In this document: in pieces, positions 27,502-56,657 of the stretch
How positions within the stretch are numbered: position 1 is the stretch's first letter
Layout: every line of letters starts with the position of its first letter
NCBI RefSeq assembly: GCF_014699055.1
Contig: NZ_JACXAC010000002.1
Location: 868,001-932,000, forward strand
Direction of reading: 5' to 3'
Length of the DNA stretch: 64,000 bases
DNA from: Hymenobacter armeniacus
GTDB lineage: Bacteria; Bacteroidota; Bacteroidia; Cytophagales; Hymenobacteraceae
Notes under the pieces: generated by a model
Seen by the model: only the letters and a program-made list of their open reading frames with translations
The model's database searches: none
Told to the model about the DNA's origin: nothing
Made by a program: the position numbers and the translations under genes

Positions 27502-27507
27502 GAGGTT

Positions 27508-27599: not shown

Positions 27600-27600
27600 A

Positions 27601-28389: not shown

Positions 28390-28425
28390 GTTTTCAGGTA
28401 ATAAGTAACAGTGAGCAGTTATCAA

Positions 28426-30106: not shown

Positions 30107-30137
30107 GGAGAGTGGAGGTGATTGGCTTGGTAATGGG

Positions 30138-30272
30138 CAGTCATGCAGCGCGGAGCGAAGCATCTCGTGTGCATCGTTCTTGCGGGCGCCTCACCCCCCG
30201 GCCCCCTCTCCCGAAGGAGAGGGGGAGCCTAGGTGGCGTGGTAAAGATGCTTCGCTGCGCGCTGCATGACTG
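30138..30272. repeat. palindromic repeat family B, copy 1, with a family A half-element in its loop
   Basis: The arms begin CAGTCATGCAGCGCGGAGCG and end in the matching reverse complement (one mismatch in about 28). The loop holds about 45 bases of family A (30188-30230: cctcaccccccggccccc and its internal hairpin) without the second A arm, so A appears inserted into B or retained as a fragment. Confidence 0.85.
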
Positions 30273-30298
30273 TTCTGTAGTATCCTGTATCGCGCTTG

Positions 30299-33003: not shown

Positions 33004-33022
33004 GATACCGGAGGGGTGGGAA

Positions 33023-37265: not shown

Positions 37266-38591
37266 TTAGGCCTCGGGCACATGCGCCACTCTATATAGCG
37301 TTTCGGGGGAGGCCTCGGGCGCGGCTACCGGCCGCTTGCGCCAGTAATTGGCCAGAATGGAGCCCGAAATGTTCATCCACGGGCTGAACACGGCGGCGGG
37401 CAGGCCCACGGTGCCCAGCTTGCCCATGCTGCCCGCCAGCCCGGAGGCCATGCCGCCGTTTTGCAGCCCCACCTCAAAGGCCACCGTGCGCGCCGAGTTC
37501 TTGTCGAGCCCAAACAGCCGCCCCAGCCAGTAGCCGAAGAAATACCCCGCCGCGTTGTGCAGCACCGACGCCAAGAACAGCAAAAAGCCCACCCGCAGCA
37601 GGTTGTCGTGCCCCGCGGCCGTGGTCACGGCCGTAAAATAGATGATGCCGAACATGGATAGGTAAGGCATTGCGCTGTCGAGGCTTTGCAAGGCGCTGGC
37701 CAGCTGGTGGTAGAGCACGCCCACCACCAGCGCCGCCACAAGGAAGCTGAATATTTCCAGCGCCTGCAGAAGCTCGGGGGTGGGCAGGGCGTTGGCCAGC
37801 AACGCCCACAAGCCCAATGGCAGCGCCCCCAGCCACAGCGCGCCGGCGCCAGCCAGCAGGCCCACCGCGCGCCGGGCCGAAGCCGGGGCCGTTTTGAGGT
37901 AGTCGTGCAAGAGCGCGGCCATGATGGGCACCAGCACGATTTTGATGATTTCCATCATCATGTTCACAAACTTCACCTCGATGAGGGTGCCGGCCAGCAG
38001 CTTTAACAACAGGGGCGTGAGAAATGGGGCCGCCAGCGTGGCCATGGCCGTCACCACCACCGAGAGCACCATGTTGGCCCGGGCCAGGTACACCATCACG
38101 TTCGAGGCCAGGCCGCTGGAGCAGGAGCCGATGAGGATGATGCCGGCCGCAATTTCGGGCTCGAAGTGGAACATCCGGGTGAGGAGCAGGCCCATGAGCG
38201 GCATCACCGAGAAGTGGCACAGCAGGCCGATGAGCACGCCCTTGCCCGTGCTGCCCAGCCCCGTGAAGTCGCGAATACTCATTTGAATGCCCATGCCGAA
38301 CATGACCAGCTGCACCACAAGCAGAATCAGCCATTTATTCCGCAAATCAACTCCGCCCCACTGCTTGAACGCGTCTGGGTACATCATGGCGGCCACCACG
38401 GCCGCCACTATCCACGCCGTGTACTGATAGCTGCGCAAGGCCGGCACCGCTTTGAAGCCTACTGCCAAGCCCACTGCCGCCGCCACTGCGGCCGGCTGCC
38501 AGATGGCCGCGTTTTGCAGAACCACGCCCGCCAGCAGCGCCGCCCCGGCAAGGCCGCTGAAAACCAAACAAAGCTGAAAAAAACGATGCAT
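37266..38591 (-). CDS. BASS-family (bile-acid:Na+ symporter) transporter
   Basis: The 441-residue protein has about ten hydrophobic helices and the family segments MFGMGIQMSIRDF, IGSCSSGLASNVMVYLARAN, TLAAPFLTPLLLKLLAGT and FEVGLQNGGMASGLA, which form the Na+ and substrate sites of BASS proteins. It is longer than the usual 320-residue members, mainly through an N-terminal extension. BASS carriers import bile acids, pantoate or 2-keto acids. It follows the racemase-like gene by 41 bp and belongs to the RuBisCO-like cluster, so an organic-acid or sugar-acid substrate is inferred. A 285-bp leader separates it from the DUF3826 operon. Confidence 0.9.
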   Translation of the reverse strand: MHRFFQLCLVFSGLAGAALLAGVVLQNAAIWQPAAVAAAVGLAVGFKAVPALRSYQYTAWIVAAVVAAMMYPDAFKQWGGVDLRNKWLILLVVQLVMFGMGIQMSIRDFTGLGSTGKGVLIGLLCHFSVMPLMGLLLTRMFHFEPEIAAGIILIGSCSSGLASNVMVYLARANMVLSVVVTAMATLAAPFLTPLLLKLLAGTLIEVKFVNMMMEIIKIVLVPIMAALLHDYLKTAPASARRAVGLLAGAGALWLGALPLGLWALLANALPTPELLQALEIFSFLVAALVVGVLYHQLASALQSLDSAMPYLSMFGIIYFTAVTTAAGHDNLLRVGFLLFLASVLHNAAGYFFGYWLGRLFGLDKNSARTVAFEVGLQNGGMASGLAGSMGKLGTVGLPAAVFSPWMNISGSILANYWRKRPVAAPEASPETLYRVAHVPEA

Positions 38592-38632
38592 CAGAAGGCC
38601 GCAGAAAAGGTGAATGAGCGAAAGGCCGGACG

Positions 38633-39295
38633 TTACGCCAGCGCAGCGGCCAGGTGCCGGATGGCAATGCCGGGACTGGCCAGAATGGGCACCCTGCGGT
38701 CGGCCGCATCCAAGGCCTCGACCACCCGGGCCATGGAAGCCTGGGCCAAAAGCACCACGTCGACCTGGGTAACCAGCTCCCGCAGCGCAGCGGCCACGAT
38801 GGCGTCGTGGCGGGCGCCGTCGCCGCTCATCAGCGCTTCGAAAGCGCCTTCGCAGAGCACAGACGTTAACTCAATTGGCTTGCCGGCCCGGGCGGCCCGG
38901 CGTTGCACCAGGTCAGCAGTGGGGCCGAGGGTGGTGGGCAGCGTGGCGATGACGCCAATGCGCCGGCCGGTGCGCACGGCTTCGTCGGCCATGGGCTGGT
39001 CGACGCGCAGCACGGGGACGCCGCTGAGGCCGGCGGCCTGCTCCACGGCCGCGCCGATGGACGAGCAGGTGACCAGCACATAGTCGGCCCCGCCGGCTTC
39101 GGCCGAATTCACGTAGCCCACCACGCGGCGGGCCACGGCGGGCGTCAGCACGCCCTCGCGGTTGATGGTGCGCACCAGGCTGTCGTCGACGATGTTGAAG
39201 GTTTGCACGCCGGGCAGGTGCTCGGCGCACAGTTGCTGAAACACGGGCACCAGCGTGGCGGAGGTGTGGATGAGGGCGAGGGTTTTGGGAGGCAT
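38633..39295 (-). CDS. Asp/Glu/hydantoin racemase-family protein with one catalytic Cys lost
   Basis: The 220-residue protein has the racemase fold: LALIHTSATLVPVF at the start and the first Cys in YVLVTCSSIG (Cys77). The second active-site segment, usually LGCTH, reads LLAQASM, with Gln185 where Cys is expected. Two-Cys members are racemases; one-Cys members such as arylmalonate decarboxylase act by other chemistry, though they keep the opposite Cys. It lies between the BASS carrier and the DUF1537 kinase on the same strand. A decarboxylase, isomerase or lyase acting on the cluster's sugar acid is possible, but this is inference. Confidence 0.85.
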   Translation of the reverse strand: MPPKTLALIHTSATLVPVFQQLCAEHLPGVQTFNIVDDSLVRTINREGVLTPAVARRVVGYVNSAEAGGADYVLVTCSSIGAAVEQAAGLSGVPVLRVDQPMADEAVRTGRRIGVIATLPTTLGPTADLVQRRAARAGKPIELTSVLCEGAFEALMSGDGARHDAIVAAALRELVTQVDVVLLAQASMARVVEALDAADRRVPILASPGIAIRHLAAALA

Positions 39296-39339
39296 GGTGG
39301 GGTGAAAGGTGTTACAGAAGATAGAAAAACGGGCGTTCT

Positions 39340-39459
39340 GAGCGCAGCCGAAGCAGCTCTGCCGCTTCGTGGGCGGGCTGGCGTGGCGCCTTACCCCCGG
39401 CCCCTCTCCCCGGGGAGAGGCGAGCCAGCCGATGCAGTAGAGCTGCTTCGGCTGCGCTC
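39340..39459. repeat. palindromic repeat family B, copy 2, with family A-like core
   Basis: Perfect 21-bp arms (GAGCGCAGCCGAAGCAGCTC plus one base; 39340-39360 and 39439-39459). The loop contains ccttacccccggcccctc with a small hairpin, which resembles a decayed family A half-element. It separates the racemase-like gene from the DUF1537 kinase gene. Confidence 0.8.
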
Positions 39460-39480
39460 GGCACGACGTTCGATACTCAT

Positions 39481-40821
39481 TCAGGTAGGCATGCGGCCTT
39501 CGAGCAGCACGCCGAAATATTCCGGCGCGCCCACCTGGCCGCCTTTAAAATTGACTTCGACGCCGTGCAAGGGTGAGCTGGGCGCGGCGGCGCGGCACAG
39601 CGGCGCGCCGGGGTACAGCGGCGCTATCATTTCTACTGCCTCGATGCCCATGGCGCGGGCGGCGTAGCTGGAGGTGTCGCCGCCGGCTACCACCACGCGG
39701 CGCACACCCGTTTGCCGCACGGCTTCGCGGGCCATGAGGCCCAGGGCCGTGCCGAGGACTTCGGCGGAAAGGCTTGGCGTTGGGCTGCCCGCTCCGCCGT
39801 TGGTATGAACGACGACGCTGCGCCCTTGCCGAAGATAGTCAATAACTTGCTGCTGAAAGGGCTCCGATGTATCCGGCAAACCAGCGCCCGCCGCCAGCTC
39901 AGGCGCATCGAGCACGACTTCCGCAAAGCCGTTGGCCTTAGCCCAAGCAATCTGCCCGGCCGTGACCGGCGAGCAGCTACCCGACACCACCAGCAGGGGC
40001 GCGGCGCGGCCGGGTGCGGGCCATTCCGTTACGGGAGTTAAGGTGTTGTTTGCGGCCCAGAATTGCCCCAGGGCCATTTCAACTCCCGAAGAGCCCACCG
40101 AAAAAAGCGGTGCTGTTTCGGTGGCGCAGCTATCGATGGCCGCGCCGATGCCCGGTAGCTGCTCGTCGTAAAGCGCGTCGAAAAGAATGATTTCCGCGCC
40201 GTGCTGCACCTGGGCGGCTATTGCTTGCTGCATTTCGGCCAGCGGCCGGGCAATTTGCAGCAGGTCGAGCAGGCCGGTTTTGAACGTGGTTTGGCGGGCG
40301 AGGTGCAGGCGCAGGTCGCTTTCGTCGGCGGGCGTGGTGGGGTGGCGGCTCATCGACGGGTGGCGGTCGAGGCGGAAGATGCCGCCGGCGCTGCCGATGC
40401 CCAGCCGCGCAAACAAGTTGCCGAAGGCGCAGTAGCGGCCCAGCAGCGGCGCAGCTACCAATAGCGGCACGAAGGCATTGGGAAATATTTTACGCCCTAC
40501 TTCGATGGCCCGTCCAATGCTGCCAATGGTAGGCGAGGAATCAAACGTGGAGCACACTTTATAATGCACGTGCCGTGGCCGTAGCGCCCGCAACTGCGTA
40601 AAAGCCGGCTCCAATACGGCCTGCATGGCCTCCGGCGGCATGGCGCGGGTGAGGCCGGCCACGCCGATGGCATCCAGATGAGGATAAACGGCGAGCTGGT
40701 CGGCCGTGGGCGGCTCGATGAACAAGGCCGTGCGCGCCCCGGCCCGGCTCAGGAATTCGAGTGCGTCGGTACTGCCGGTGAAGTCGTCGCCGTAGTAGGC
40801 AAGGAGAAGCTGCGAGTTCAT
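39481..40821 (-). CDS. four-carbon acid-sugar kinase family protein (DUF1537), OiaK-like
   Basis: Start ATG 40821 gives MNSQLLLAYYGDDFTGSTDA and 446 residues; the open frame to 41187 is antisense-like. DDFTGSTDALEF is the substrate-side motif of the N-terminal domain (Pfam DUF1537) and GGDTSSYAARAMGIEAVEM with SGSCSPVTAGQIAWA marks the nucleotide-binding C-terminal domain. Members phosphorylate D-threonate, D-erythronate, 3-oxo-tetronates or 3-oxo-isoapionate. The start overlaps the stop of the RuBisCO-like gene by 4 bp (ATGA), a sign of translational coupling. This kinase plus RuBisCO-like pairing is that of the D-apiose acid pathway; the actual substrate is untested here. Confidence 0.92.
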   Translation of the reverse strand: MNSQLLLAYYGDDFTGSTDALEFLSRAGARTALFIEPPTADQLAVYPHLDAIGVAGLTRAMPPEAMQAVLEPAFTQLRALRPRHVHYKVCSTFDSSPTIGSIGRAIEVGRKIFPNAFVPLLVAAPLLGRYCAFGNLFARLGIGSAGGIFRLDRHPSMSRHPTTPADESDLRLHLARQTTFKTGLLDLLQIARPLAEMQQAIAAQVQHGAEIILFDALYDEQLPGIGAAIDSCATETAPLFSVGSSGVEMALGQFWAANNTLTPVTEWPAPGRAAPLLVVSGSCSPVTAGQIAWAKANGFAEVVLDAPELAAGAGLPDTSEPFQQQVIDYLRQGRSVVVHTNGGAGSPTPSLSAEVLGTALGLMAREAVRQTGVRRVVVAGGDTSSYAARAMGIEAVEMIAPLYPGAPLCRAAAPSSPLHGVEVNFKGGQVGAPEYFGVLLEGRMPT

Positions 40822-42062
40822 TGGCCGCCGAATTTTTGCACGGCTGCCGCGAATTCCGGGTGCTGCGTGGCGGTTTCGGCCAGGCTGCGGCCGTCTACCG
40901 CGCCCTGCCAGGCTTGTTGCAGCGCCTGCACGCCGGCCGCCGGCCCCATGGGGTGGGCCAGGATGCCGCCGCCGGCCATGTAGAGCAAATCGGTGGTGCG
41001 GGTGCGGCGGTAGGTTTCGAACGCCTGCCCGCCCCACTGGCCCGACGACACCACCGGCAGCACCGGGTAGCCGCCCAGCAGCGGCGCCTGGCAGGCTTCG
41101 ATGGACGCTACCACGCTGTCGTCGGATTCCCAGAACTTGTTCTGAATGCCGTTGACGTGCAGCTGGTCGACGCCGGCCAGCCGCCACAGCTTCTGGTAGG
41201 CCCGAAAGTCGATGCCCAGCAGCGGGTGCCGCGTGAGCATGCCCCAGCCGTTGCGGTGCCCGTGAATAGCCAACGCGCGCTGGTCGCAGATTTTGCGGGT
41301 GCCCGCCAGGCCCACGCTGTTGAGGCTCACCATGGCGCAGGTGCCGCCGGCGCGCACCACGTACTCGTAGCGGCGCAGCATGTCGTCGATTTCGCCGCTG
41401 ATGTTAAAGGCGTACATCACCTTCTTGCCGGTGCGGTCGGCGTGGCGGTTGATGACGGCCATCACGGCATCGACGCGCGCCTCGAAAGGGGAGTTGGCCG
41501 CGGCCATCTGCAGCTCGTCGTCTTTCACGAAGTCGATGCCCGCCTCGGCCAGCGTGTGCACCAGCCCGGCCGTTTGCTCCGGCGTGAGGCCGATGCTGGG
41601 CTTGATGATGGTGCCGATGAGCGGCCGGCCCTGCACGCCCGTCAGCGCCCGGCAGCCCGCCACGCCAAACGCCGGCCCAGCAAAGTGCTGCGCGTACGAA
41701 GCCGGCACGTCAATGTCCATCAGCTTCAATCCCGTGAACTGCCGGATTTCGTACAGATTCCCTTGCAGCGTGGACACCAGCAGCGGCAGGTTGTACCCAA
41801 AGTTTTCCACCGACCACGACACCCGCACCCGCGCCCGATGATACAGCCCGCTGCTGCTCGTGGCCCCCGGAATGGCCGGCTCCCGAACCGTTTCCAGCAT
41901 CTCTACCGATTCCACGCGGGCGGCGAAGCGCTGCTTGAGCTCGGCCGTTTCGCCCGGCACGGCCACGAAGGTGCCGGAGGACTGTTCGCCCGCCAGCACG
42001 GCGGCGGCAGCGGCCGGGTCGAAGGGGGTTTCGATGTAGTAGGTGGCGGTGATGCGTTCCAT
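40818..42062 (-). CDS. RuBisCO-like protein (form IV), 3-oxo-isoapionate-4-phosphate-type candidate
   Basis: Start ATG 42062 (MERITATYYIETPFDP) gives 414 residues. The RuBisCO large-subunit fold is shown by GTIIKPSIGL (Lys154), DFVKDDE (Lys180 the carbamylation site, Asp182, Glu183), AFNISGE, IHGHRNGWG (His268), NKFWE (Lys309), VVSSGQWGG and MAGGGILAHPMGPAAG. The K-D-E metal triad is kept, but the loop-6 GKLEGE of true carboxylases is altered to NKFWES, so it is form IV. Known RLPs paired with DUF1537 kinases are OiaX (decarboxylase) and XacX (transcarboxylase/hydrolase) of D-apiose catabolism. It overlaps the kinase gene by 4 bp. The substrate is inferred from that pairing. Confidence 0.93.
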   Translation of the reverse strand: MERITATYYIETPFDPAAAAAVLAGEQSSGTFVAVPGETAELKQRFAARVESVEMLETVREPAIPGATSSSGLYHRARVRVSWSVENFGYNLPLLVSTLQGNLYEIRQFTGLKLMDIDVPASYAQHFAGPAFGVAGCRALTGVQGRPLIGTIIKPSIGLTPEQTAGLVHTLAEAGIDFVKDDELQMAAANSPFEARVDAVMAVINRHADRTGKKVMYAFNISGEIDDMLRRYEYVVRAGGTCAMVSLNSVGLAGTRKICDQRALAIHGHRNGWGMLTRHPLLGIDFRAYQKLWRLAGVDQLHVNGIQNKFWESDDSVVASIEACQAPLLGGYPVLPVVSSGQWGGQAFETYRRTRTTDLLYMAGGGILAHPMGPAAGVQALQQAWQGAVDGRSLAETATQHPEFAAAVQKFGGQ

Positions 42063-42085
42063 GCGGTGTGTTGTTCTGGCGTAAC

Positions 42086-42210
42086 GCCTCACCCCCTGAC
42101 CCCCTCTCCTTTGGGAGAGGGGGCACCGGTTCGGCTTCTGGCGTAAATCGTCAGGATTCTCTCTCTGAGGCTTCGCGCTTCAATCGAACCGGAGCTGGGG
42201 GTGAGGCGCC
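42086..42210. repeat. palindromic repeat family A, copy 2, with a truncated right arm
   Basis: The left arm from 42087 (gcctcaccccctgacccc) is complete through ggcaccggttcg, but the right side keeps only cgaaccgg and gggggtgaggcgcc, lacking about 30 bases of arm. It lies between the RuBisCO-like and TIM-barrel genes. Confidence 0.8.
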
Positions 42211-42220
42211 CGTTAGGTGT

Positions 42221-43123
42221 TTAGCTCTGAAAAATCGACTTCAGATAGGCTGCGTTCGCCCCGAAATTCTTCTTCACATTCCGCGGGTCGGCGGCATCGC
42301 GCGAGCGTTCAATCACCAACCAGCCTTCCCAGCCCATGTCGGCCAGGGTTTGCTTCACCTTTTTCATATCGAGGCGGGTGTTGTTTTGCAGCCACACGCC
42401 GTCCTCGTCGGTGGCGTGCATCTGGCAGATGCGCTTGCGGCCCAAAATCTTGAGTTCCTCGTGCAGGTCGCGGCCTTCCTTGAGCGGGTTCGAGAAATTG
42501 AAATAAATCTGGATGTTTTTCGAGCCGATTTCTTTCAGCAAAGCCACTTCGCCTTTGGCATCCAGCGCGGTTTCGATGCCGACGATAACGCCCGCTTTCT
42601 TCGCCATTTCGCCCACCACTTTCAGCCGCTCCACAATGGCCGGGCGCAGCTCGGGGTTCTTGCGCAAGTCACCCTGCGTACCCAGCGGCAGAAAAGCCAC
42701 CTTCACGTTCAGCGCCTTCATGGTGTCGAGGCAGTCCTGAATCATGCGCTGGTAGGTGGGGCGCGTGGCGAAGGACTGGGCGTAAAAACCGGTCATGGCC
42801 AGCGAGCATATTTCCAGGTTCAGCTCCCGGGCCTTGTCGATGAACTGCTGGCGGGTTTCGGGCTTGGCGAGCTGGTTATCGAAGGTTTCGCGCTGGCCTA
42901 GGCCGCCCATGTCAATTTCCACGCCGTCGGCCCCGATGTCCTTGGTGAGCTGCAGGGACCCCAGCTTCTGCCGTTTCAGAATCATCAAATCCACCACCGC
43001 CACTTTGTAGGTCAGCTTCTTTTTGGTGTGAGCAAGGGCAATGGCCCAGCCGGGCAGGAGCAGGCCAGCGGTGAGCAAGGCGCTGGTGGAGAGGAAGTCG
43101 CGGCGGGAAAGAAGGTGGCTCAT
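42221..43123 (-). CDS. exported xylose-isomerase-like TIM-barrel protein with Tat-type signal
   Basis: The 300-residue protein begins MSHLLSRRDFLSTSALLTAG, a twin-arginine signal (SRRDFL), so the protein is probably exported. The body fits the sugar-phosphate isomerase/epimerase AP-endonuclease-2 fold: KDIGADGVEIDMGGLGQ, NLEICSLAMTGFYAQ, VAFLPLG, GIETALDAKGEV, QMHATDEDGVW, EGWLVIERSRDA. The Glu, Asp, His and Glu ends of strands are likely metal ligands. It is next to the RuBisCO-like gene and separated from it by repeat A copy 2. A periplasmic isomerase, epimerase or decarboxylase is possible; an OiaC-like cytosolic role is less likely because of the signal. Confidence 0.88.
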   Translation of the reverse strand: MSHLLSRRDFLSTSALLTAGLLLPGWAIALAHTKKKLTYKVAVVDLMILKRQKLGSLQLTKDIGADGVEIDMGGLGQRETFDNQLAKPETRQQFIDKARELNLEICSLAMTGFYAQSFATRPTYQRMIQDCLDTMKALNVKVAFLPLGTQGDLRKNPELRPAIVERLKVVGEMAKKAGVIVGIETALDAKGEVALLKEIGSKNIQIYFNFSNPLKEGRDLHEELKILGRKRICQMHATDEDGVWLQNNTRLDMKKVKQTLADMGWEGWLVIERSRDAADPRNVKKNFGANAAYLKSIFQS

Positions 43124-43138
43124 GTTGTCCTGGCGTTC

Positions 43139-43278
43139 GCCTCACCCCCTGACCCCCTCTCCTCGGGGAGAGGGGGCACCGGTTCTTGAGGACGGTTCGA
43201 TGGTCTATTATCAGAAAGAATTGCGGGGGCATTTCCAGTGCCCCCTCTCGCCGAGGAGAGGGGGTCAGGGGGTGAGGC
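43139..43278. repeat. palindromic repeat family A, copy 3
   Basis: Arms 43139-43178 (gcctcaccccctgacccc start) and about 43238-43278 match closely around a 59-base centre. The minus-strand stop codon of the esterase gene (43265-43267) lies in the right arm, so the last residues of that protein come from the repeat. Confidence 0.88.
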
Positions 43279-44689
43279 GCCCCGTATGGTCGGTGCGAAA
43301 CGGCCGGGCCGGCAATCCCGCCTCCGAAAACAGGTTGGGCTGCGCCACTTCGTCCCAGCCAAAGCGCACGGCCGTGGGGTGCGGCACGCCCAGCGCCGAC
43401 ACCAGCACCTGCGTACCCAGGATGCGGGCCTGTGCGGGCACAAACACGCCGTCGGTCCCGGCAATGGTGAAGTCCGTCAGCGCCTGGCCGTCTTTGCTGA
43501 TGAGCGGCGCGGCCGACGCAAACGAGACGGTGGCCACCGCACCCTTTACTTTCAGGCTGCGGAAAACCGGGCCTTCGGCCACTACGCCGGGCGTTTTATA
43601 GGTATTCGCCAGCGCCAGCAACGCCAGCCGCCGCCCGATTTCCCACTTGAAGCCGGGATGAATGCCGCCTTCGGTATTAGCCAAATCGGTGGTTTCAATC
43701 ATGCCGGTGTGCGGCACCTGCAGCACCGCCGCTTGCGCCTCGCGGAACAGCGGCAGGGTTTCGCGCGTGAGCACCACTTTGTCGTGGGTGTCGGAGTACT
43801 TGAACGGGGCCAGCGATACGTAGTAAAACGGCATTTTGGGGTCGCCCCAGGCCGCGCGCCAGCTATTGATGAGCGTGCGCATTTTCTGCGTGTACGTCGT
43901 GGTTTCGGCCAGAAAGCAGTTGCTCTCGCCCTGGTACCAGAGGAAGCCGCGCGCCGCCAGCGGCGCCAGCGGCTTCACCATCGGTTCCCAGAATTTGCCT
44001 GGGTCACCGTCCACTTTCTTGCCGGCAAAAGCCGGGTCTTGGGCAAAAGCGGCTTCCGAAATCCAAGGTTCGATGCGGCTGCCGGGCACCGACGTGGCCA
44101 CCATGCCCACCGGCACATTGAGGCGCTTGTTCAACTCTTTGGCAAAGAAATAGGCGGCAGCCGAGAACGACCGCAGAGCCGAATCCTGAGCCACGGCCCA
44201 GTCGTGGTGTAGAGTGTCGGGCTTGGGCAGGGTCTTGCGGTTGACTAAGAAAATGCGGATGGCAGGGTTGTGGGCCACATTCAGCTCATCCACCGGGTTG
44301 GGGCCGGGCAGGTCGGGGCGCGTCACCTTGCTGTTTTTGCGCATGGTGTATTCCATGTTTGACTGGCCCGAACACACCCAGACTTCACCTACCAGAATGT
44401 TGCGCAGCCGGATGGTATTGCTGCCGCTGATGACCAGCTCCGCCGGCGCTGCCGAAGCTTTCAGTGGCTTAAGCACCACCTGCCACTTGCCGGCGGCATC
44501 GGCTTTGGTACTGAATTTCTGGCCGGCAAACTGCACCGTCACCGCTTCGCCCGGCGCGGCCGTGCCCCAGATGGGCACGGGCTTATCGCACTGCAGCACC
44601 ATATCATGCCCGAGAATGCGCGGGATGGTAATGGTGGCGTGGGCAGGGATTGACAGGAGAATGGCCAGCACGATGTAGAGACGCGACAC
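43265..44689 (-). CDS. sialate O-acetylesterase-like SGNH carbohydrate esterase (DUF303)
   Basis: Start GTG 44689 gives SRLYIVLAILLSIPAHA as signal peptide and 474 residues; ATG 44740 is the alternative and adds 17 residues read from the repeat. Esterase motifs are VCSGQSNMEY (nucleophile Ser), VPGSRIEPWIS, LWYQGESNCF and GIHPGFKWEIG (catalytic His). DUF303 enzymes remove acetyl groups from sialic acid or plant glycans such as acetylated pectin. It follows the beta-helix/TIM gene on the same strand. Both ends are made by repeats: the start lies in family C copy 1, and RLTP plus the TGA come from family A copy 3. Confidence 0.88.
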   Translation of the reverse strand: MSRLYIVLAILLSIPAHATITIPRILGHDMVLQCDKPVPIWGTAAPGEAVTVQFAGQKFSTKADAAGKWQVVLKPLKASAAPAELVISGSNTIRLRNILVGEVWVCSGQSNMEYTMRKNSKVTRPDLPGPNPVDELNVAHNPAIRIFLVNRKTLPKPDTLHHDWAVAQDSALRSFSAAAYFFAKELNKRLNVPVGMVATSVPGSRIEPWISEAAFAQDPAFAGKKVDGDPGKFWEPMVKPLAPLAARGFLWYQGESNCFLAETTTYTQKMRTLINSWRAAWGDPKMPFYYVSLAPFKYSDTHDKVVLTRETLPLFREAQAAVLQVPHTGMIETTDLANTEGGIHPGFKWEIGRRLALLALANTYKTPGVVAEGPVFRSLKVKGAVATVSFASAAPLISKDGQALTDFTIAGTDGVFVPAQARILGTQVLVSALGVPHPTAVRFGWDEVAQPNLFSEAGLPARPFRTDHTGRLTP

Positions 44690-44797
44690 TTCGCGTCTCG
44701 CCGTTGAACGACGATGGTCAAACGATGACGCTCGAATCATGCTGGCCGAGCAGTTCCGATTGTTCAACGAGGAGACGCGAAGTGTCGCGTCTCTACA
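44674..44797. repeat. palindromic repeat family C, copy 1
   Basis: Left arm TGTAGAGACGCGACACTTCG from 44674 and right arm 44761-44797 are near reverse complements, with inner GTTGAAC/GTTCAAC also pairing. It spans the gap from the DUF6298-like gene (ends at 44812) into the N-terminal coding region of the esterase gene. Other copies are at 50357 and 54855. Confidence 0.88.
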
Positions 44798-44811: not shown

Positions 44812-47800
44812 TCATTTCTTCCGAATCCAAATAACCTCCGCGCCCGTCGCCGCGCCACTCAACGTCACCGTTTTCCCACCTTTCACCGTTTCCGTCGCGC
44901 CCGCGAGCTGCCCGGTTCTCGGATTGATGCGACGCACGGCAAACGTGCCGCTCATCCCCGATAAATCGACCTGCGCCGGCGACTGGCCCTCCCGGTACAG
45001 CAGCAGCCCGGTTTTGCCGTCGCTCATCGCCCATTGGTCTGCAGGCTTGCCGGGCAGCTCTATTGGCTTCATTTCCGAAATGGCCGTGGCAAAACCGGCA
45101 TCGGCCACGCGGGGCAGGCTGGCCATGGAGCCGCCCGCCAGCAGCACCGCCCAACCAAAGGCGTCGTAGCCATCGGCCGAGTAGAGCACGGCTTTGTCGG
45201 GGAATTGCTGGCGGTACTCGCGCACGGCCCGATACACCTGCTCGAAGGAACTGCGCTTGGGCGGGGTGAGGCGGGCGTGCTGGCGCGGGGCTAGGTTCTG
45301 GCCGCCAGCCGGCGCGTAGGCCTGGCCGTTGAACTGGTAGTGCCAGTAGTTGATGTCGATGACGTCGACCACTTTCGCCCGGGCCGCGTCGGCTAGGATG
45401 GCGTCCTGCACTTCCTTGGTGGTGCTCAGGGCGATGGTGGGGTGCTGGCCGGTTTCGGTTTCCCACTCCTTGATGGTATCGAGCCAGAACTGCACGAAGG
45501 TGAGCGGCCCGGTAAATTCGGCTCCGATGAGGTGAATGACGCCGGTCTGACCTTTGAAATTGTTGAGGCACTGGCGGATGTAGGCGCGGTGTAGCGGCCG
45601 GCGCGTGGCATCGGTCACGTCGTAAAACTGCTCGGCCATGAAGATGCGCTTGTCGCCGGCGTAGGGCGCGGGCTCCGGGAAGCCGGTGTTGTTCACGTTG
45701 TTCACCGGGCGCCAGGGGAAATCGGCGTAATGCGCGCCGGCCTCGATGATGTTGTGCTGGAAATAGTGCTGGTTGAGCAGCACGAGGCCCTTCTGGTCGG
45801 CCAGGTCGGCGAATTGGTGCAGGCGGCTCCAGTACCAGGCGTTGTACTTGGTGAGGTCGTAGCGGCTGAGGCCATCCCAGGCCAAATCCTTGCCGCTGCG
45901 GGCGAAGGGCAACTCGTAGAAAGGCGCCCACACCTCACCATCCATGCGCTTGATGCGCTCGTGGTCGTCGCGCCGGCGCTCGTACCACAGGCCGTAGTTG
46001 TGATGCAGGGCCACCACGTTTTGGGCCCGCATCGAGTCGGTCAGCTCCGCCAAGTCATCGGTCAGCCCGCGGCCAATCTGGCCCGGCACGAAGCGCGTGA
46101 TGTGCGGCTTGGGATTGAGCAGACCGTAGGGGCGGGCGCTGCCGTTCCACCACGGCACCTCCTGGCGGCGGCCCAGCACCAAGGCGTTGCCGCGCACCAG
46201 CACGCCCTGCGCCACGTGCAGTGGGGCTGCGTAGGTGGGCGCCGGGGCCGTTTTTACCTTCAGCTTGTCGATGCTCGGCGCCGAGTTTTGGATGGCAATG
46301 GGCTGACGCGTGGGCGCCGCTTTCACCAGTTCCAGTACGGTAGGCGCGGGGTTCATCGAGAGGCGCGTGAGCTCCTGGGCCACGGCCACTTTGGGGCTGC
46401 TGCTGGCCTCGGTGGGCACGGGGAGTATGATGGCGCGAGCTTTAACACCGTCGCCCAGTCGCTCCTGTAGCTGGGCGTAGTAGAGGCTGCGCGGGTTGAT
46501 GTTTTCGTTGGATTGGTCCCAGAAGCCATTGCCGCCGAACTGCGCCCAGGTGCCAAATGCCCAGTTTTGGGCCGTGGGTGGCTGGTAGCAGTCGACGCGG
46601 GCGGCGGTGCATTGCCAGAACACGCTGTTGGCCACGGCCCATCCTGCTCCCTGCCCGTCCTGCTCGCGGTTGCCGAAGCGCAGGGCTTGGCCGTATTCTT
46701 TGATGATGTCGAACAGCACGCCCGAAGCCCAGCTATCCACGCCGCCGCTGAAGCTCAGCGCCTGCTCGGCCTCGCACTGCACGAAGGCATTGGGGCCGGC
46801 CGCGCAGAAGCCCAGGGCAAAATCGTGGTAGCCATTCTCGGCGTAGAGCCGCTGAAACAGCGTTTGCGAGCCCAAGGTGTAAAACGTATTGCGCCGCTCG
46901 TTGCCTATTTCCGACACCGGCTCGGTCGAAATACAGTCTTCCACCGTGAGGCGGCGGGTGGTTGATTGAGCTAAAACGGCCGAGCCGGCGAAGTGCCGGA
47001 ACGCCACCTGCCGCACCCAGGCGTCTTGGGCATTTTCAATATCAATGGCTACCCAGCGATGGTTTTCATCTTTGGGATTGGCTGCGTCGAAGGTCGATTC
47101 CAACCGCAGATTCTCTACGCCCACCTGCGAAACCAAGCCCGGCCAGGTGTAGCGGGCTACGGTGCCGCCGCCGTAGGTTTGGTCGAGGGCCGTGGTGATG
47201 GGTGCATCCAGCGTGACACCATTGGCATCCACGGCCACCACTTGGCGGTCCCAGGCGAGGTCGCGCTGGCCGGGTTTCCAGCCCAGCGAGGACAGGCCGC
47301 CGCCGAAGGTTTCCATGCCCAGCCGGTGCACCCAGGCGGCCGTGCTGGGCCGCCGCACCTGCACCCGGTCGCCCACCTTGAAGGTGCTGGCATTGGCAGT
47401 TTTGATGGTGCGCGCATTCACCGGCACATACTTGTCGGTGGTGGCCAGCGCGGTTTCAAACTTGCGGTCGTTGCGCCCGCCCACGGTCAGCAGGTGGTCG
47501 CGGCTCACGCCCGTGCCGATGACCACGGTGCCGCCCTCGCCCATGCCGGAGCCGCGCAGCACCACGCCCGAGGCGCGAATAAACAGCCGCCCGGCTACCT
47601 CATACGTGCCGCGTTCCAGCAGCACCGCGCCGCGCAGCCCATCCTTGCCCAACGGCAAGCCGGCCACATAGTCCAGCGCCGACTGAATGCGCGCCGTGGC
47701 ATCGCCCGCCTTCACCGGCACCGTCACCTTGATACCCGCCATCGGAATGGTCGCCTCGCCCGCGCGGTAGCCCGCGTAGGAAAAGTCCGGCACCCGGTTG

Positions 47801-47955
47801 CCCAGTGAATCCGGCGCGTAGCTCAGCTTGCCATCCTTGTACTCGATGGGGCCGGGCGGCGGCACGGGCTTGGCGGGCTTCTGCGCGGCGGCTGGGCCGG
47901 CGGCTAGTAAGCCGGAGAGGAGCAGGAGGTAAAAGGTGCGGGTGGGGTGGGGCAC
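44812..47955 (-). CDS. exported two-domain protein: beta-helix plus TIM-barrel glycosidase-like (DUF6298-like)
   Basis: Start GTG 47955 gives the signal PHPTRTFYLLLLSGLLAAGP and 1047 residues; a TTG start at 48000 is the alternative. Residues about 50-480 read as a right-handed beta-helix of the pectin-lyase type (LFIRASGVVLRGSGMGEGG, DIENAQDAWVRQVAFRHF, AENGYHDFAL). After a linker (about 500-620) comes a region with PWWNGSARPYGLLNP, RYDLTKYNAWYWSRLHQFA, LLNQHYFQHNIIEAG and LIGAEFTGP, which looks like a TIM-barrel glycosidase. This matches what I recall as DUF6298. The enzyme specificity is unknown. It is in one direction with the PL1 gene upstream and the esterase gene downstream. Confidence 0.8.
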   Translation of the reverse strand: MPHPTRTFYLLLLSGLLAAGPAAAQKPAKPVPPPGPIEYKDGKLSYAPDSLGNRVPDFSYAGYRAGEATIPMAGIKVTVPVKAGDATARIQSALDYVAGLPLGKDGLRGAVLLERGTYEVAGRLFIRASGVVLRGSGMGEGGTVVIGTGVSRDHLLTVGGRNDRKFETALATTDKYVPVNARTIKTANASTFKVGDRVQVRRPSTAAWVHRLGMETFGGGLSSLGWKPGQRDLAWDRQVVAVDANGVTLDAPITTALDQTYGGGTVARYTWPGLVSQVGVENLRLESTFDAANPKDENHRWVAIDIENAQDAWVRQVAFRHFAGSAVLAQSTTRRLTVEDCISTEPVSEIGNERRNTFYTLGSQTLFQRLYAENGYHDFALGFCAAGPNAFVQCEAEQALSFSGGVDSWASGVLFDIIKEYGQALRFGNREQDGQGAGWAVANSVFWQCTAARVDCYQPPTAQNWAFGTWAQFGGNGFWDQSNENINPRSLYYAQLQERLGDGVKARAIILPVPTEASSSPKVAVAQELTRLSMNPAPTVLELVKAAPTRQPIAIQNSAPSIDKLKVKTAPAPTYAAPLHVAQGVLVRGNALVLGRRQEVPWWNGSARPYGLLNPKPHITRFVPGQIGRGLTDDLAELTDSMRAQNVVALHHNYGLWYERRRDDHERIKRMDGEVWAPFYELPFARSGKDLAWDGLSRYDLTKYNAWYWSRLHQFADLADQKGLVLLNQHYFQHNIIEAGAHYADFPWRPVNNVNNTGFPEPAPYAGDKRIFMAEQFYDVTDATRRPLHRAYIRQCLNNFKGQTGVIHLIGAEFTGPLTFVQFWLDTIKEWETETGQHPTIALSTTKEVQDAILADAARAKVVDVIDINYWHYQFNGQAYAPAGGQNLAPRQHARLTPPKRSSFEQVYRAVREYRQQFPDKAVLYSADGYDAFGWAVLLAGGSMASLPRVADAGFATAISEMKPIELPGKPADQWAMSDGKTGLLLYREGQSPAQVDLSGMSGTFAVRRINPRTGQLAGATETVKGGKTVTLSGAATGAEVIWIRKK

Positions 47956-48007
47956 AGAGAGGAAAATGGGCGTTTTCAGAGCAGCTTGACAGGAAACCAA
48001 AGAAAGA

Positions 48008-48125: not shown

Positions 48126-49757
48126 TTAGGGCTTCACCGTATTCAGCGCCACCAGGCCGTTGAGGTAGTTCTCAATGTTGGCGTAACCGTTTTTGGCGAT
48201 GGCCGCCGCGTCGGCGGCATTCTTGGGGTCGAAGCCGTTCTTTTTTTCGTAGTCGTCGGGCATGCCGTCCTTGTCCGAGTCGGTGTAGGGCTTGCCTTTG
48301 TAGTCGGGGTAGCCGCCCACCTGCATCGGGTCGGTGATGATGCCCTGCTTGTAGGAATCAATGGGCAGGCGGCGGTGCTCAAACTGCGTGGTGGGCAGCT
48401 TCACGTTCTTGATGTAGTCGATTTTGCCGGTGCGCACCTGCTCCACCACGCGGGTGTCCACGGGGTCGCGCTTGGGCAGGGTGGCGCCGGCGTTGTCGAG
48501 CACGTAGCCGTAGGCTTTCTCAGCCGGAATGATGGTGATTTCCGGCATCGGCAGGGGTTTATTCACCTTCATGTCGGCCTGGTACTTGCCGGCGTTGGGC
48601 TGCTCTTCCACCTGCACGCCGCCGTTCCAGTTGTCCTTGGTGACGTCGGGGAAGCCTTCCACGATGTTGCCGGCCACGTAGGCGCGGCCGTACACCTGGT
48701 ACTTCAGCTTGCTGCGGCCCGATTCGGGCTTCAGGATGCGGTGGCCGATATTGGTGTCCTTCGGCGTGGAGGGGCCGGGCTTGTAGTAGTTGTTGATGAT
48801 GTTGTAGAGGGCGCGGTAGTCGCCGCCGTCCACGGAGCGGTGCACCCAGTTGAACATCACGTTGTTGGCGAAGTTGAACACACCGTTCCAGCCAATTGAT
48901 GGATTGCGGCCCGCGTTGTCGGCCCACAGGTTGCGCATGAAGGTGCAGTTCTCGCCGCCCAGCGTGCTGCCGAAGGCGTGGTTCCAGGTATCGAGCGATT
49001 CCGAGAAGATGGAGTTCTGGATGGTGATGTTCACTGTGCCCAATTTCTGCTCTGGAATGCCGGTGCTGTCGTTGTACATGTGGCGGTACATCGACATGTT
49101 CTCGTCCAGCCCCCAGCTCGCCGAGACGTGGTCAATCATGATGTTGCCAATCGGGTTGCCGCCGATGGAGTCGTCGCGCCGGCCCACGTTCGTCTCGCCC
49201 CGGCGGAAGCGCATGAAGCGCACCAGCACGTCGTGCGTGTTCAGCCACACCGATTCGCCGGCCACGCAGATGCCGTCGCCGGGCGCACTCTGGCCCTCAA
49301 TGGTGATGTAGGGCGCCCGAATCATGAGCGGCGTCTTCAGCCGGATGATGCCGGCCACGTTGAACACCACGATGCGCGCGCCGCCCTGCTCGCAGGCCTC
49401 GCGCAGGCTGCCGGGGCCGCTGTCGGCCAGGCTGGTCACCACAATCACGCGCCCGCCGCGCCCGCCGTAGGTGTAGGCCCCGCCGCCCTCCGCGCCCGGA
49501 AACGCCGGGATGCTGGCCTGCGGCAAATCGATGGGCCGGGCCGCCCACGGAATGTAGGGCTTGCCCTCGCGCTGCTCTTTCTGAATGATGGGGTAGGCCT
49601 TGTTCCAGGCAATTTCAGACTGCCGGTAGGCGTCCTTCATCATGGCCTCGCTGGCCTTCTGCACGTCCTGCGGAATCTTCGGATACTGGGCGTGGGCCGC
49701 GAATTGCGTCGAGAAGAAGAGGCCGAGGGCGCAGAGGGAAGCAACTGGTTTGTTCAT
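48126..49757 (-). CDS. exported PL1-family pectate lyase-like protein
   Basis: The 543-residue protein has a signal peptide (SLCALGLFFSTQFAAHAQ) and PL1 motifs: FPGAEGGGAYTYGGRGGRV, VVTSLADSGPGSLREA, VLVRFMRFRRGETNVGRRDD, IMIDHVSASWGLDENM and ADNAGRNPSIGW. The end has DSDKDGMPDDYEKKNGFDP (calcium-type thrombospondin-3-like loop) and ANIENYLNGL, common in Bacteroidota PL1 proteins. PL1 enzymes cleave polygalacturonate by beta-elimination with Ca2+. It is the first gene of the minus-strand group and lies 445 bp from the divergent TIM-barrel gene, so promoters for both probably share that gap. Confidence 0.93.
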   Translation of the reverse strand: MNKPVASLCALGLFFSTQFAAHAQYPKIPQDVQKASEAMMKDAYRQSEIAWNKAYPIIQKEQREGKPYIPWAARPIDLPQASIPAFPGAEGGGAYTYGGRGGRVIVVTSLADSGPGSLREACEQGGARIVVFNVAGIIRLKTPLMIRAPYITIEGQSAPGDGICVAGESVWLNTHDVLVRFMRFRRGETNVGRRDDSIGGNPIGNIMIDHVSASWGLDENMSMYRHMYNDSTGIPEQKLGTVNITIQNSIFSESLDTWNHAFGSTLGGENCTFMRNLWADNAGRNPSIGWNGVFNFANNVMFNWVHRSVDGGDYRALYNIINNYYKPGPSTPKDTNIGHRILKPESGRSKLKYQVYGRAYVAGNIVEGFPDVTKDNWNGGVQVEEQPNAGKYQADMKVNKPLPMPEITIIPAEKAYGYVLDNAGATLPKRDPVDTRVVEQVRTGKIDYIKNVKLPTTQFEHRRLPIDSYKQGIITDPMQVGGYPDYKGKPYTDSDKDGMPDDYEKKNGFDPKNAADAAAIAKNGYANIENYLNGLVALNTVKP

Positions 49758-50202
49758 AAGCGGGGGTGGGGAGTTTAGATGAAGCGAAATAACAGGGTAA
49801 AAACCGCCGGCACCTATACCATTTTCTCGACCCTGTGTAGGATGTTAGCATGCCCCCCAGACGGCGACAGAGGCAGCCAGGGGTGTTGAGTAAATACTCA
49901 CCCCTATGCTCCTTGCCAATGTTCGTGTGGCAAATGAGGCAGGGGCATTGTTCAGTTCAGCACAACAAAAAGAAGGCTTTAGCTATTATGCAGGCCTTTG
50001 ATTGAGCAAGGGCAATGCTGATTGTAGCCCACAAATCAGCCGTTCGTGACACCTCACCGCGCCCTGCCTCTGCAGTCGCAAAGGCTGCCTTCGCGGCAGA
50101 GTTATCGATTGTGTCAGGGCTGATTTGGCGATGGCAACATGCTACAAGAGCCGGCGAACATGGTACACAGAAGCAGCTCGGGTGCCCGATAATTTTGACC
50201 TG
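49758..50202. other. 445-bp divergent intergenic region
   Basis: This is the region between the PL1 gene (minus) and the plus-strand gene at 50203. No coding sequence was seen. TAATTTTG at 50190-50197 fits the TAnnTTTG -7 consensus but lies only 5 bp before the chosen ATG and lacks a -33 element, so it is doubtful. No palindrome of families A-D is present. Confidence 0.6.
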
Positions 50203-53145
50203 ATGCCATTCGTCTATTTTGCTCCTTCCTTCCGCGAAGCACCAGCGCATCGAAACCGCTGGAATGCGCTTGTTCGCGGTGCCTTTTTAATAGCCGGCCT
50301 GTTGCTGAGCGTGGCTCAAGTAGCTGCGGATGCCGCGCCGAAGCCAACAGAACGCCGTAGAGACGCGACACTTCGCGTCTCCTCGTTGAACAACAACTGG
50401 ACTCCCCTCAGACGGCGCGAACGCCGAGACGCAAAGTGTCGCGTCTCTACAGTCCGCCCAACTGCGCAAACCCGCACCATCCTGCTGCCCAAAACCGCCC
50501 ACGCCCGTCTGCAATACGGCGCGGAACGGCTGGCCGCTGCCCTGCGCACCGCGGGCTACCAGGTGCAGATTCAGCAGGCCGATAAATTGCCCAAAGCCAA
50601 AGGCCTGATTGTGGTGGGCCAGGCCAAGGACGCGCTGGTACAACAGGCAGCCACGGCCTTGCGCATCACCACCGAGAAAGCGCCCAGCAAGGAAGGATTC
50701 GCTATTTCGTCGGCAAAAGACGACAATCTGCTCATCAGCGGAGCCGATAATTCCGGCGCCCTCTACGGCTGCCTGGAGCTGGCCGAACAAGTCAAAACCC
50801 AGGGCAAGCTCAGCGACAACCTGCACCTCACCGACCAGCCCGAAATGGTGCTGCGCGGCACCTGCATCGGCGTGCAAAAGCCCACGTACCTGCCCGGTCG
50901 CAACGTGTACGAGTACCCCTACACGCCCGAGACGTTTCCGTGGCTCTACGATAAGCAGCTCTGGATTAAGTATCTCGACATGATGGTTGACAACCGGTAC
51001 AACTCGCTCTATCTCTGGAACGGGCACCCGTTTGCCTCGCTGGTGCGGCTCAAGGACTACCCGTTTGCGGTGGAAGTGGACGACGCCACTTTTAAAAAGA
51101 ACGAGGAGATGTACCGCTTCCTGACCGAGGAGGCCGACAAGCGCGGCATCTGGGTGATTCAGATGTTCTACAACATCATTGTATCCAAGCCCTTCGCCGA
51201 GCACTACAACATTAAAACCCAGGACCGCGCCCGGCCCATCGTGCCGCTCATTGCCGATTACACGCGCAAGTCCATCGCCGCTTTCGTGGAGAAGTATCCC
51301 CACGTGGGCCTGATGGTGGCGCTGGGCGAGGCCATGGAAGGCGCCGGCCAGGACGACGTGGACTGGTTCACAAAAACCATCATTCCCGGCGTGCAGGACG
51401 GCCTCAAGGCCCTGGGCAGCACCGAGCAGCCGCCCATCGTGCTGCGCGCCCACGACACCGACGCGCCCCGCGTCATCACCGAAGCGCTGCCGCTCTACAA
51501 AAACCTCTACACCGAGGCCAAATTCAACGGCGAGGCGCTCACGACTTACACCCCGCGCGGCTCCTGGGCCGAACTGCACCGCAAACTGAGCGGCATGAAC
51601 TCGGTGCACATCGAGAACGTGCACATCCTGGCCAACCTGGAGCCGTTCCGCTACGGCTCGGCCGATTTCATTCAGAAATCGGTGCAGGCCATGCACAACA
51701 TCTACGGCGCCAACGGCTTGCACCTCTACCCGGAGTCGTCGTACTGGGACTGGCCCTACACCGCCGACAACGTGGCCGGCCGCCAGCTGCAGGTCGACCG
51801 CGACTGGCTGTGGTACGCCGAGTGGGCCCGCTACGCCTGGCGCGCCAACCGCCCCCGCCCGGCCGAAGTCGCGCACTGGAGCCAAAAGCTGGCCGCGCAG
51901 TTCGGCTGCGACGAGCAGGCCGGCCAGCAGATTCTCACCGCCTACGAAGAAGCCGGCGAAATCGAGCCCAAGCTGCTGCGCCGCTACGGCATCACCGACG
52001 GCAACCGGCAGACGCTGACCTTGGGCATGCTCATGAATCAGCTCATCGACCCCAAGCGCTACGGCTTGTTTACGCTGCTTTATGAGTCGGAATCGCCGGA
52101 GGGCGAGATGATTATCGAGTATGCGGAGAAGGAGGCGAAAGGGGGGAAGCACGTGGGCGAAACCCCGCCGCAGATAGCCAACGAGGTGGTGGAACACGGC
52201 AAAAAAGCCGTGGCCGCCATCGAGCGCGCCGCGCCGGCCATCAAGCAGAATCAGGCCGAGTTTGCCCGCGTTAAAAACGACATATACTGCCAGGATGCGC
52301 TGGCGAATTTCTACGCCGAAAAAGCGCGGGCCGCCTTACAAGTGCTGAAGTATAAGTACTCGCACAACGTGCAGGACCTGACCGCTGCCGTGCCTTTGTT
52401 GCAAAGCAGCGTGGCGCACTGGCAGAAGCTGGTCGAACTCACCAAGAATACCTACCTCTACGCCAACAGTATGCAAACCGCCCAGCGCAAAATCCCGATG
52501 CGCGGTGTGGATGGAACCTACAAGACCTGGGCCGAGATGCTGCCGGTGTACAAAAAGGAATTGGCCGATTTTCAGCACAACATCGACTCATTAAAAACGG
52601 CCAAGGTCGCGCCCGCTGCCAAGCTGGTGGCCTTACGCAACGCTCCCGTAACGCTGCTAACCAAAAGTGCGGGCACCTACACCGTAACCGCCGGCCAAAC
52701 AATTTTTGCCGATACCACCGCGCGGCTCGCGGCCTTCGCGCCGGAGCTGGCGGGGCTCAAAGGAATCCGTTTCAGTAAGGCGCAGCAAGTGGCGCAGGGC
52801 ACGGAAATCCGGTTTTCCACCAAAAAGCCCGTGCAGGTTCTGGTTGGCTTCTTCAACCAGAAAAGCCCGCGCTATCTGCCCGTGCCCACGCTGGAAATTG
52901 ACGCCAGCGCCAACGATTACGGCCAGGCCGAAAGCAAGATTTTGAATGCGTTGGCCATCCCCGGCCTGCCGCCCGTCAACGTGCATGCCTACTCCTTTAA
53001 GGCCGGTACGCACACGCTGAATCTGGCCCGCGGAGCCTGCCTCATTCTGGGGTTTGTGGATGCCACGCAGCCGGTGCCAACTTATAATGCCGGGCTGGGC
53101 AGCGCGGTGGCGCCGGGCCGCGAGATTGATTGGTTGTTTGAGTAA
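50203..53145 (+). CDS. exported TIM-barrel glycosidase-like enzyme with GH20/GH67-type N-terminal domain
   Basis: Start ATG 50203 (MPFVYFAPSF...) leads to a hydrophobic segment VRGAFLIAGLLLSVAQVAA, giving 980 residues; an upstream start at 50125 is less likely. Residues about 52-83 are read from a family C palindrome. Next is an alpha/beta domain (about 85-215) of the kind seen before GH20, GH67 and GH84 barrels (SGADNSGALYGCLELAEQVK), then a TIM barrel (about 220-560: DMMVDNRYNSLYLWNG, GIWVIQMFYN, LGEAMEGAGQDD, LHLYPESSYWDWPY), a helical region and a C-terminal beta-sandwich. Glu and Asp at the strand ends, as in LGEAMEG and YPESSYWDWP, are candidate catalytic residues. GH138-type galacturonidases of RG-II have a comparable role, but family membership was not established. 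Confidence 0.75.
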   Translation: MPFVYFAPSFREAPAHRNRWNALVRGAFLIAGLLLSVAQVAADAAPKPTERRRDATLRVSSLNNNWTPLRRRERRDAKCRVSTVRPTAQTRTILLPKTAHARLQYGAERLAAALRTAGYQVQIQQADKLPKAKGLIVVGQAKDALVQQAATALRITTEKAPSKEGFAISSAKDDNLLISGADNSGALYGCLELAEQVKTQGKLSDNLHLTDQPEMVLRGTCIGVQKPTYLPGRNVYEYPYTPETFPWLYDKQLWIKYLDMMVDNRYNSLYLWNGHPFASLVRLKDYPFAVEVDDATFKKNEEMYRFLTEEADKRGIWVIQMFYNIIVSKPFAEHYNIKTQDRARPIVPLIADYTRKSIAAFVEKYPHVGLMVALGEAMEGAGQDDVDWFTKTIIPGVQDGLKALGSTEQPPIVLRAHDTDAPRVITEALPLYKNLYTEAKFNGEALTTYTPRGSWAELHRKLSGMNSVHIENVHILANLEPFRYGSADFIQKSVQAMHNIYGANGLHLYPESSYWDWPYTADNVAGRQLQVDRDWLWYAEWARYAWRANRPRPAEVAHWSQKLAAQFGCDEQAGQQILTAYEEAGEIEPKLLRRYGITDGNRQTLTLGMLMNQLIDPKRYGLFTLLYESESPEGEMIIEYAEKEAKGGKHVGETPPQIANEVVEHGKKAVAAIERAAPAIKQNQAEFARVKNDIYCQDALANFYAEKARAALQVLKYKYSHNVQDLTAAVPLLQSSVAHWQKLVELTKNTYLYANSMQTAQRKIPMRGVDGTYKTWAEMLPVYKKELADFQHNIDSLKTAKVAPAAKLVALRNAPVTLLTKSAGTYTVTAGQTIFADTTARLAAFAPELAGLKGIRFSKAQQVAQGTEIRFSTKKPVQVLVGFFNQKSPRYLPVPTLEIDASANDYGQAESKILNALAIPGLPPVNVHAYSFKAGTHTLNLARGACLILGFVDATQPVPTYNAGLGSAVAPGREIDWLFE
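50357..50450. repeat. palindromic repeat family C, copy 2, inside a coding sequence
   Basis: Arms 50357-50381 (GTAGAGACGCGACACTTCGC start) and 50426-50450 match with one mismatch. The whole element is read in frame in the gene at 50203 and encodes the Arg-rich stretch RDATLRVSSLNNNWTPLRRR and following residues between signal peptide and mature domain. Confidence 0.9.
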
Positions 53146-56632: not shown

Positions 56633-56657
56633 TTGATTTATAATAGCTTGCTTGTTG

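Follow-up and report, generated by a model that had tools for sequence, protein, structure and literature searches.

OiaK/OiaX and OiaT constitute branches of the oxidative pathways for D-apiose (Carter et al. 2018, cited via PMC6302742). Both systems combine a RuBisCO-like protein (RLP) with a DUF1537 kinase, usually encoded by adjacent genes. Here we analyse a related locus in a 64,000-nucleotide stretch of the Hymenobacter armeniacus genome (contig NZ_JACXAC010000002.1, positions 868,001 to 932,000, forward strand; hereafter the window), which encodes, on the minus strand, an RLP, a DUF1537 kinase, a protein with the Asp/Glu racemase fold (RACE) and a BASS-family carrier. This RLP-kinase-RACE-BASS tetrad probably serves to degrade L-aceric acid (3-C-carboxy-5-deoxy-L-xylose) released from side chain B of rhamnogalacturonan II (RG-II). 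We infer the substrate, each of the reactions, the role of RACE and the transported compound from the company that the genes keep and from the structure of the molecule. Few plant polysaccharides are as complex as RG-II; its depolymerising enzymes are known, and aceric acid is its rarest sugar. No description of bacterial aceric acid catabolism was found in the open-access literature.

Comparison with the OiaK/OiaX and OiaT systems

The RLP gene (40818..42062, minus strand; PF00016/PF02788) is the sole RuBisCO-family gene of the genome and encodes an OiaX-related form IV protein, which matches PF00016 of the RuBisCO fold family with 231 bits and has the carbamylatable Lys, the Asp/Glu metal ligands and the phosphate sites of that family. 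The ATG at 42062 is a better placed start than the GTG at 42092, which may give a longer form, relatives beginning at the ATG position. The closest curated NCBIfam model is that of OiaX (NF042437), for which the protein scores 521 bits, below the equivalog cut-off of 700; the Rufibacter RLP scores 509 bits and the annotated Rhizobium etli OiaX 785 bits. An enolase-type RLP, raised as a possibility in the preliminary description of the locus, is rejected, as the MtnW model yields 165 bits only. In an alignment with relatives the KDDE, KP and HP-G motifs and the phosphate-site residues are invariant, and the catalytic residues are the same as in R. etli OiaX, with which the protein shares approximately 52% identity. 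The residues of the active-site loop are nearer to those of OiaX than to those of the Ancylobacter group, which is presumed to be OiaT-like on account of its relatedness to Xanthobacter and of the surrounding genes. In a tree built by a quick method, with Shimodaira-Hasegawa-like approximate likelihood ratio test (SH-aLRT) values as its sole support, the protein falls in a clade of 48 rows (SH-aLRT 98), of which 43 are RACE-type and 5 unlabelled, with no ApnO-type entry among them. Proteobacterial RLP loci with TRAP, SDR and pyruvate-kinase genes, whose identity to the RLP exceeds that of OiaX, were rejected as a model, since they fall elsewhere in the tree and have neither RACE nor GH127.

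The kinase gene (39481..40821, minus strand; PF07005/PF17042) has its start codon within the ATGA that closes the RLP gene; both reading frames are open, and the overlap of the two genes described earlier is directly visible. Its closest model is that of OiaK (NF042436, cut-off 700), to which the kinase scores 393 bits. The R. etli kinase beside the true oiaX also remains below the cut-off, with 476 bits, which makes this equivalog threshold useless as a test. The homology of the pair to OiaX/OiaK, as proposed before, is supported.

The partners of the pair are different. At the annotated oiaX locus of R. etli (L023), the RLP and kinase are accompanied by a triose-phosphate-isomerase-like gene, RpiB, a PGDH_C protein which we take to be ApnO (D-apionate oxidoisomerase), an ABC importer and a Gfo/Idh dehydrogenase. 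The tetrad contains neither ApnO, LerI and RpiB nor an ABC importer, having RACE and BASS in their place, and it is linked to GH127 instead of to apiose dehydrogenase and lactonase. LerI/RpiB-type isomerases, present at the R. etli locus, are absent from the tetrad loci, the rest of the H. armeniacus genome not having been searched for them. With the R. etli ApnO as query, the search of the rest of the genome that had been recommended gave no ApnO (best E 0.15), while the same query picks up ApnO at about 20 further RLP loci. PF16896 has no match in the genome either, nor in any control genome. It was right to regard the usual apiose partners as missing and the carrier and racemase-like protein as new ones. 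Of the named RLP loci spanning 12 kb or more, 36 have RACE without ApnO, 19 have ApnO without RACE, 2 combine the two and 11 are free of either; RACE and ApnO are thus nearly mutually exclusive (2 of 57 shared). A D-apiose route via ApnO is rejected on the basis of this near exclusivity and the lack of ApnO in the genome.

Conservation of the tetrad and its coupling to GH127

The order and strand of the tetrad are kept in 17 of the 18 other Hymenobacteraceae loci, which makes it a real module. In a scan of named genomes the same set recurs in Chitinophagaceae, Pedobacter and Flavobacterium (Bacteroidota), and in Verrucomicrobiota and Planctomycetota. Besides the kinase and RLP, RACE is the only enzyme common to nearly all tetrad-type loci, including those free of BASS. 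It also accompanies RLPs outside the 48-row clade, in Chloroflexota, Cohnella and Granulicella, which suggests repeated recruitment; two Chloroflexota RLPs outside the clade sit with both RACE and the type of GH127 described below. Bacteroides ihuae, the sole Bacteroides among 14 control genomes, has no RuBisCO-family match. On a Croceibacterium plasmid (L022:13229-17582), a GH127 of another subgroup overlaps the RLP and kinase, and RACE lies elsewhere on the plasmid, adjoining a carrier of the major facilitator superfamily.

Clustering of the neighbouring genes reveals one family, GH127, that adjoins the RLP in many tetrad loci. The best solved relative of the RLP-adjacent GH127 is PDB entry 5mqo (772 bits; next 365), presumably BT_1003; the PDB labels 5mqo as beta-L-arabinofuranosidase only, and the neighbouring entry 5mqp as BT_1002. 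Published accounts describe BT1003 as the hydrolase that releases aceric acid in RG-II breakdown (PMC10850190, PMC5698469). In 14 named loci a BT1003-type GH127 gene precedes the RLP gene on its strand by no more than 160 bases, and 19 of 36 RACE-type loci have one within about 10 kb of the RLP, compared to none of the 19 ApnO-type loci. All 18 tetrad-bearing Hymenobacteraceae genomes, H. armeniacus included, possess a BT1003-type GH127, against 17 of the 182 without the tetrad (Fisher 2e-16). In genomes with none near the RLP, it is present elsewhere in 17 of 19 of the tetrad clade, compared to 1 of 18 of the ApnO type and 0 of 4 of the SDR type (other phyla; Fisher 2e-7 for the cross-phyla coupling). 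Both Fisher values are indicative only, as the genomes are related and their independence is overstated. The GH127 gene of H. armeniacus, full-length, lies on the same contig, outside the window (C4:973972-976059; 897 bits to 5mqo, next best 396).

The distribution of the GH140 apiosidase is different. Each of the 18 tetrad-bearing Hymenobacteraceae genomes contains it, as do about 39 further genomes of the family; of the latter, the 22 that lack the BT1003-type GH127 are all without the tetrad (0/22). Across phyla the apiosidase accompanies both ApnO-type and tetrad-type genomes, whereas the GH127 is found almost only with the tetrad. Two sets (L070, L081) combine the tetrad genes and GH127 with no apiosidase, and four ApnO-type clusters (L085, L088, L091, L097) have the apiosidase without the BT1003-type GH127. 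The tetrad thus tracks the GH127 that releases aceric acid, and not the apiosidase as such.

RACE, the carrier and the proposed pathway

RACE (38633..39295, minus strand; PF01177) has the fold of Asp/Glu racemases. Its AlphaFold model has a pLDDT of 96.3, and Foldseek superimposes it on Asp/Glu racemases with TM scores up to 0.80; a phmmer search against the PDB gave no match, so that the fold search alone succeeded. Cys77 is invariant in 58 of 58 relatives, in all of which the second catalytic Cys site reads AQ[A/G]SM. The earlier label of a one-Cys racemase-like protein is therefore correct in the catalytic sense. RACE shares the fold and one conserved catalytic Cys with the Asp/Glu racemase superfamily, which includes arylmalonate decarboxylase, but differs in lacking the second. 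Racemisation usually uses two acid/base residues, and with a single such residue a 1,2-proton shift would fit better than racemisation, which is an argument rather than a test. RACE is predicted to be the aldose-ketose isomerase of the first step. A RACE homologue in R. etli occurs apart from the RLP, in an uninformative neighbourhood.

The carrier gene (37266..38591, minus strand; PF01758, SBF; best NCBIfam model PanS, below cut-off) comes after RACE in nearly all tetrads, and its product is predicted to be a sodium-coupled importer of the acid. Upstream of the RLP lies a gene for a xylose-isomerase-like TIM barrel with a twin-arginine (Tat) signal (42221..43123, minus strand; PF01261 and a weak TAT signal match). 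It is conserved at this position in the genus and not in every tetrad, occurring in 14 loci as compared to 50-57 for BASS and RACE, and is therefore rejected as a core enzyme. The TIM barrel is possibly an accessory periplasmic isomerase or mutarotase. All five reading frames of the module described earlier are open at the positions given, and Pfam/NCBIfam matches bear out the presence of carrier, racemase-like protein and exported TIM barrel in the locus.

In the proposed pathway, the BT1003-type GH127 would free aceric acid, which BASS would carry into the cell. RACE would isomerise the aldose to the ketose HOCH2-C(=O)-C(OH)(COOH)-CHOH-CH3, the primary hydroxyl of which would be phosphorylated by the kinase, predicted to act on the terminal CH2OH of the keto acid. 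The RLP, whose predicted substrate is a 4-phosphorylated beta-keto tertiary hydroxy acid, would then cleave the resulting phosphate; here, as in OiaK/OiaX and OiaT, the expected reactant is a branched beta-keto acid phosphorylated at position 4. The substrate of those systems, 3-oxo-isoapionate, is HOCH2-C(=O)-C(OH)(COOH)-CH2OH. The ketose of aceric acid is its one-carbon homologue, with CHOH-CH3 in place of CH2OH as the sole difference. Because the reacting groups are the same in both keto acids, an OiaK-like kinase and an OiaX-like or OiaT-like RLP could act without an oxidation or an oxidoisomerase.

Two outcomes of the RLP reaction may be envisaged. A transcarboxylation and hydrolysis, as for OiaT, would give 3-phosphoglycerate and lactate. 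An OiaX-like decarboxylation would give a 5-deoxypentulose 1-phosphate, from which an aldolase would then produce dihydroxyacetone phosphate and acetaldehyde; two class II aldolase genes are present in the genome. In the 5-deoxyribose disposal pathway (DrdK/DrdI/DrdA), DrdA splits a compound of the 5-deoxypentulose 1-phosphate type into the same two products (PMC6079011). A decarboxylating RLP would thus yield a product of the kind used by DrdA, although the source sugar, the kinase family and the isomerase family of the tetrad all differ from those of that pathway.

Alternative explanations

Could the tetrad serve D-apiose after all, with RACE or some other enzyme standing in for ApnO in the formation of 3-oxo-isoapionate, followed by steps like those of OiaK and OiaX? 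The closest models of both kinase and RLP, the OiaX-like loop residues of the RLP and the apiosidase in every tetrad-bearing Hymenobacteraceae genome, on the contig of H. armeniacus itself at C4:943757, all agree with this possibility. We nevertheless regard it as unlikely, because the family members with the apiosidase and without the GH127 are all devoid of the tetrad, because tetrad genes occur with GH127 and no apiosidase, and ApnO-type clusters with the apiosidase and no such GH127, and because the gene adjoining the RLP is GH127 and not GH140. With the RLP score below the OiaX cut-off, the D-apiose substrate favoured in the preliminary description is not upheld. Slightly less likely is the processing of another RG-II or branched acid, such as 3-deoxy-D-manno-oct-2-ulosonic acid (Kdo), 3-deoxy-D-lyxo-hept-2-ulosaric acid (Dha) or a methylated or oxidised product, by a RACE that is a true epimerase. 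An entire RG-II superlocus is close by, and RACE is found apart from the RLP in R. etli and with ApnO in Acidobacteria. However, Kdo and Dha, being 2-keto acids, lack the tertiary-alcohol beta-keto acid used by enzymes of the OiaK/OiaX type, and the adjacency of GH127 points to aceric acid. The least likely alternative, by a small margin, is one broad pathway for keto acids derived from both apionate and aceric acid, in which the substrate would be set by the enzyme at the entry, be it ApnO, RACE or the two together. Two acidobacterial loci (L112, L113) with RACE and ApnO beside a single RLP-kinase pair speak for such a pathway, as does the difference of just one CH3-bearing carbon between the two keto acids; yet without an ApnO gene in H. 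armeniacus the RACE branch alone would work here.

Several observations weigh against the aceric acid pathway. Genes for one polymer tend to cluster in any case, so that the coupling to GH127 demonstrates the context of RG-II chain B and not the reaction, and 17 Hymenobacteraceae genomes have the GH127 (one a partial match) but no tetrad; relatedness of the genomes also tempers the statistics. RACE stands with RLP, kinase and ApnO in L112 and L113, possibly dual clusters for apiose and aceric acid, and without a BT1003-type GH127 in two Cohnella loci (L108, L124). RACE is hence not confined to the pairing with GH127, and its role may extend to several acids. The independent RACE lineages show no convergent substitutions in the RLP. 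Finally, the racemase fold is known for racemases, and to our knowledge an aldose-ketose isomerisation by this fold would be new.

The RG-II superlocus and other genes of the window

The contig carries an RG-II degradation superlocus, with GH138 in the window and GH140, GH141, GH106 and GH127 just outside, in agreement with the RG-II setting suggested previously. Following the TIM barrel gene, the minus strand encodes a SASA-type acetylesterase (43265..44700; PF03629; gene start not fixed; syntenic in the genus), a DUF6298 protein (44812..48000; PF19815, 813 bits) and a pectate-lyase-like secreted protein (48126..49757), which is syntenic in the genus. On the plus strand are found a GH138-type enzyme of the RG-II chain A alpha-galacturonidase family (50125..53145; 1028 bits to BPa0997, 6hzf/6hze), which escapes every Pfam-A model, a GH28 pectin hydrolase (54973..56526; PF00295) and a GH95 enzyme (56652..59447; PF22124). 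GH28, GH95, GH2 and related enzymes were recovered in the window as described earlier, and the supposed PL1, the protein at 48126-49757, has no Pfam match, so that PL1 is unconfirmed there. Beside the tetrad, and syntenic with it in the genus, a SusD-like (31195-33033) and SusC-like (33023-36250) outer-membrane pair, named from the translations, is encoded on the minus strand. Outside the window the contig holds the GH140 apiosidase gene (C4:943757-945148), a BT_1020-like protein, a GH141 (719 bits to BT_1002) and a GH106 (1263 bits to 5mqm). Within the superlocus, at C4:980998-987557 (L191), two extracellular solute-binding proteins flank a CoA-transferase of family III and a Gfo/Idh dehydrogenase, a gene mix that is odd for a sugar locus.

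An oxidative L-fucose gene set is located at 26485-31063 (minus strand), comprising an L-fucose dehydrogenase (NF052481, above cut-off), a Zn-alcohol dehydrogenase, a fuconolactonase-like protein, a 2,4-didehydro-3-deoxy acid hydrolase-like protein and an SDR; similar pairs of L-fucose dehydrogenase and Zn-alcohol dehydrogenase come after the tetrad in Pedobacter loci L059-L061. The intergenic repeat CCCCCTGACCCCCTCTCC and its variants have 10 matches in the window (0 expected), often as inverted pairs approximately 50-100 bases apart, at 3634-3737, 30194, 42085-42132, 43138-43279, 53169-53277 and 59481-59606, with one copy between the TIM barrel and RLP genes. The gene at 14941-22161 (minus strand) encodes a secreted protein of 2406 residues with bacterial Ig-like domains and a Por secretion tail, and has an internal tandem repeat of 324 bases (2.7 copies at 98%).

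Implications

The locus shares the extracellular families GH127, GH141, GH106, GH140, GH138 type, GH95 and GH28 with the RG-II degradome of Bacteroides thetaiotaomicron. That degradome is known for depolymerisation, and the tetrad adds a predicted cytoplasmic route for one of the products. We tentatively propose that this may be the first bacterial route for aceric acid, with a one-Cys isomerase of the racemase fold, a DUF1537 kinase acting on a new substrate and an RLP catalysing a new reaction, distributed over Bacteroidota, Verrucomicrobiota, Planctomycetota and Chloroflexota. If this is true, four orphan genes of many environmental bacteria would gain a concrete, testable function, the range of RuBisCO-like proteins would widen by a substrate and perhaps by a reaction, and isomerisation would be added to the roles of the Asp/Glu racemase fold.

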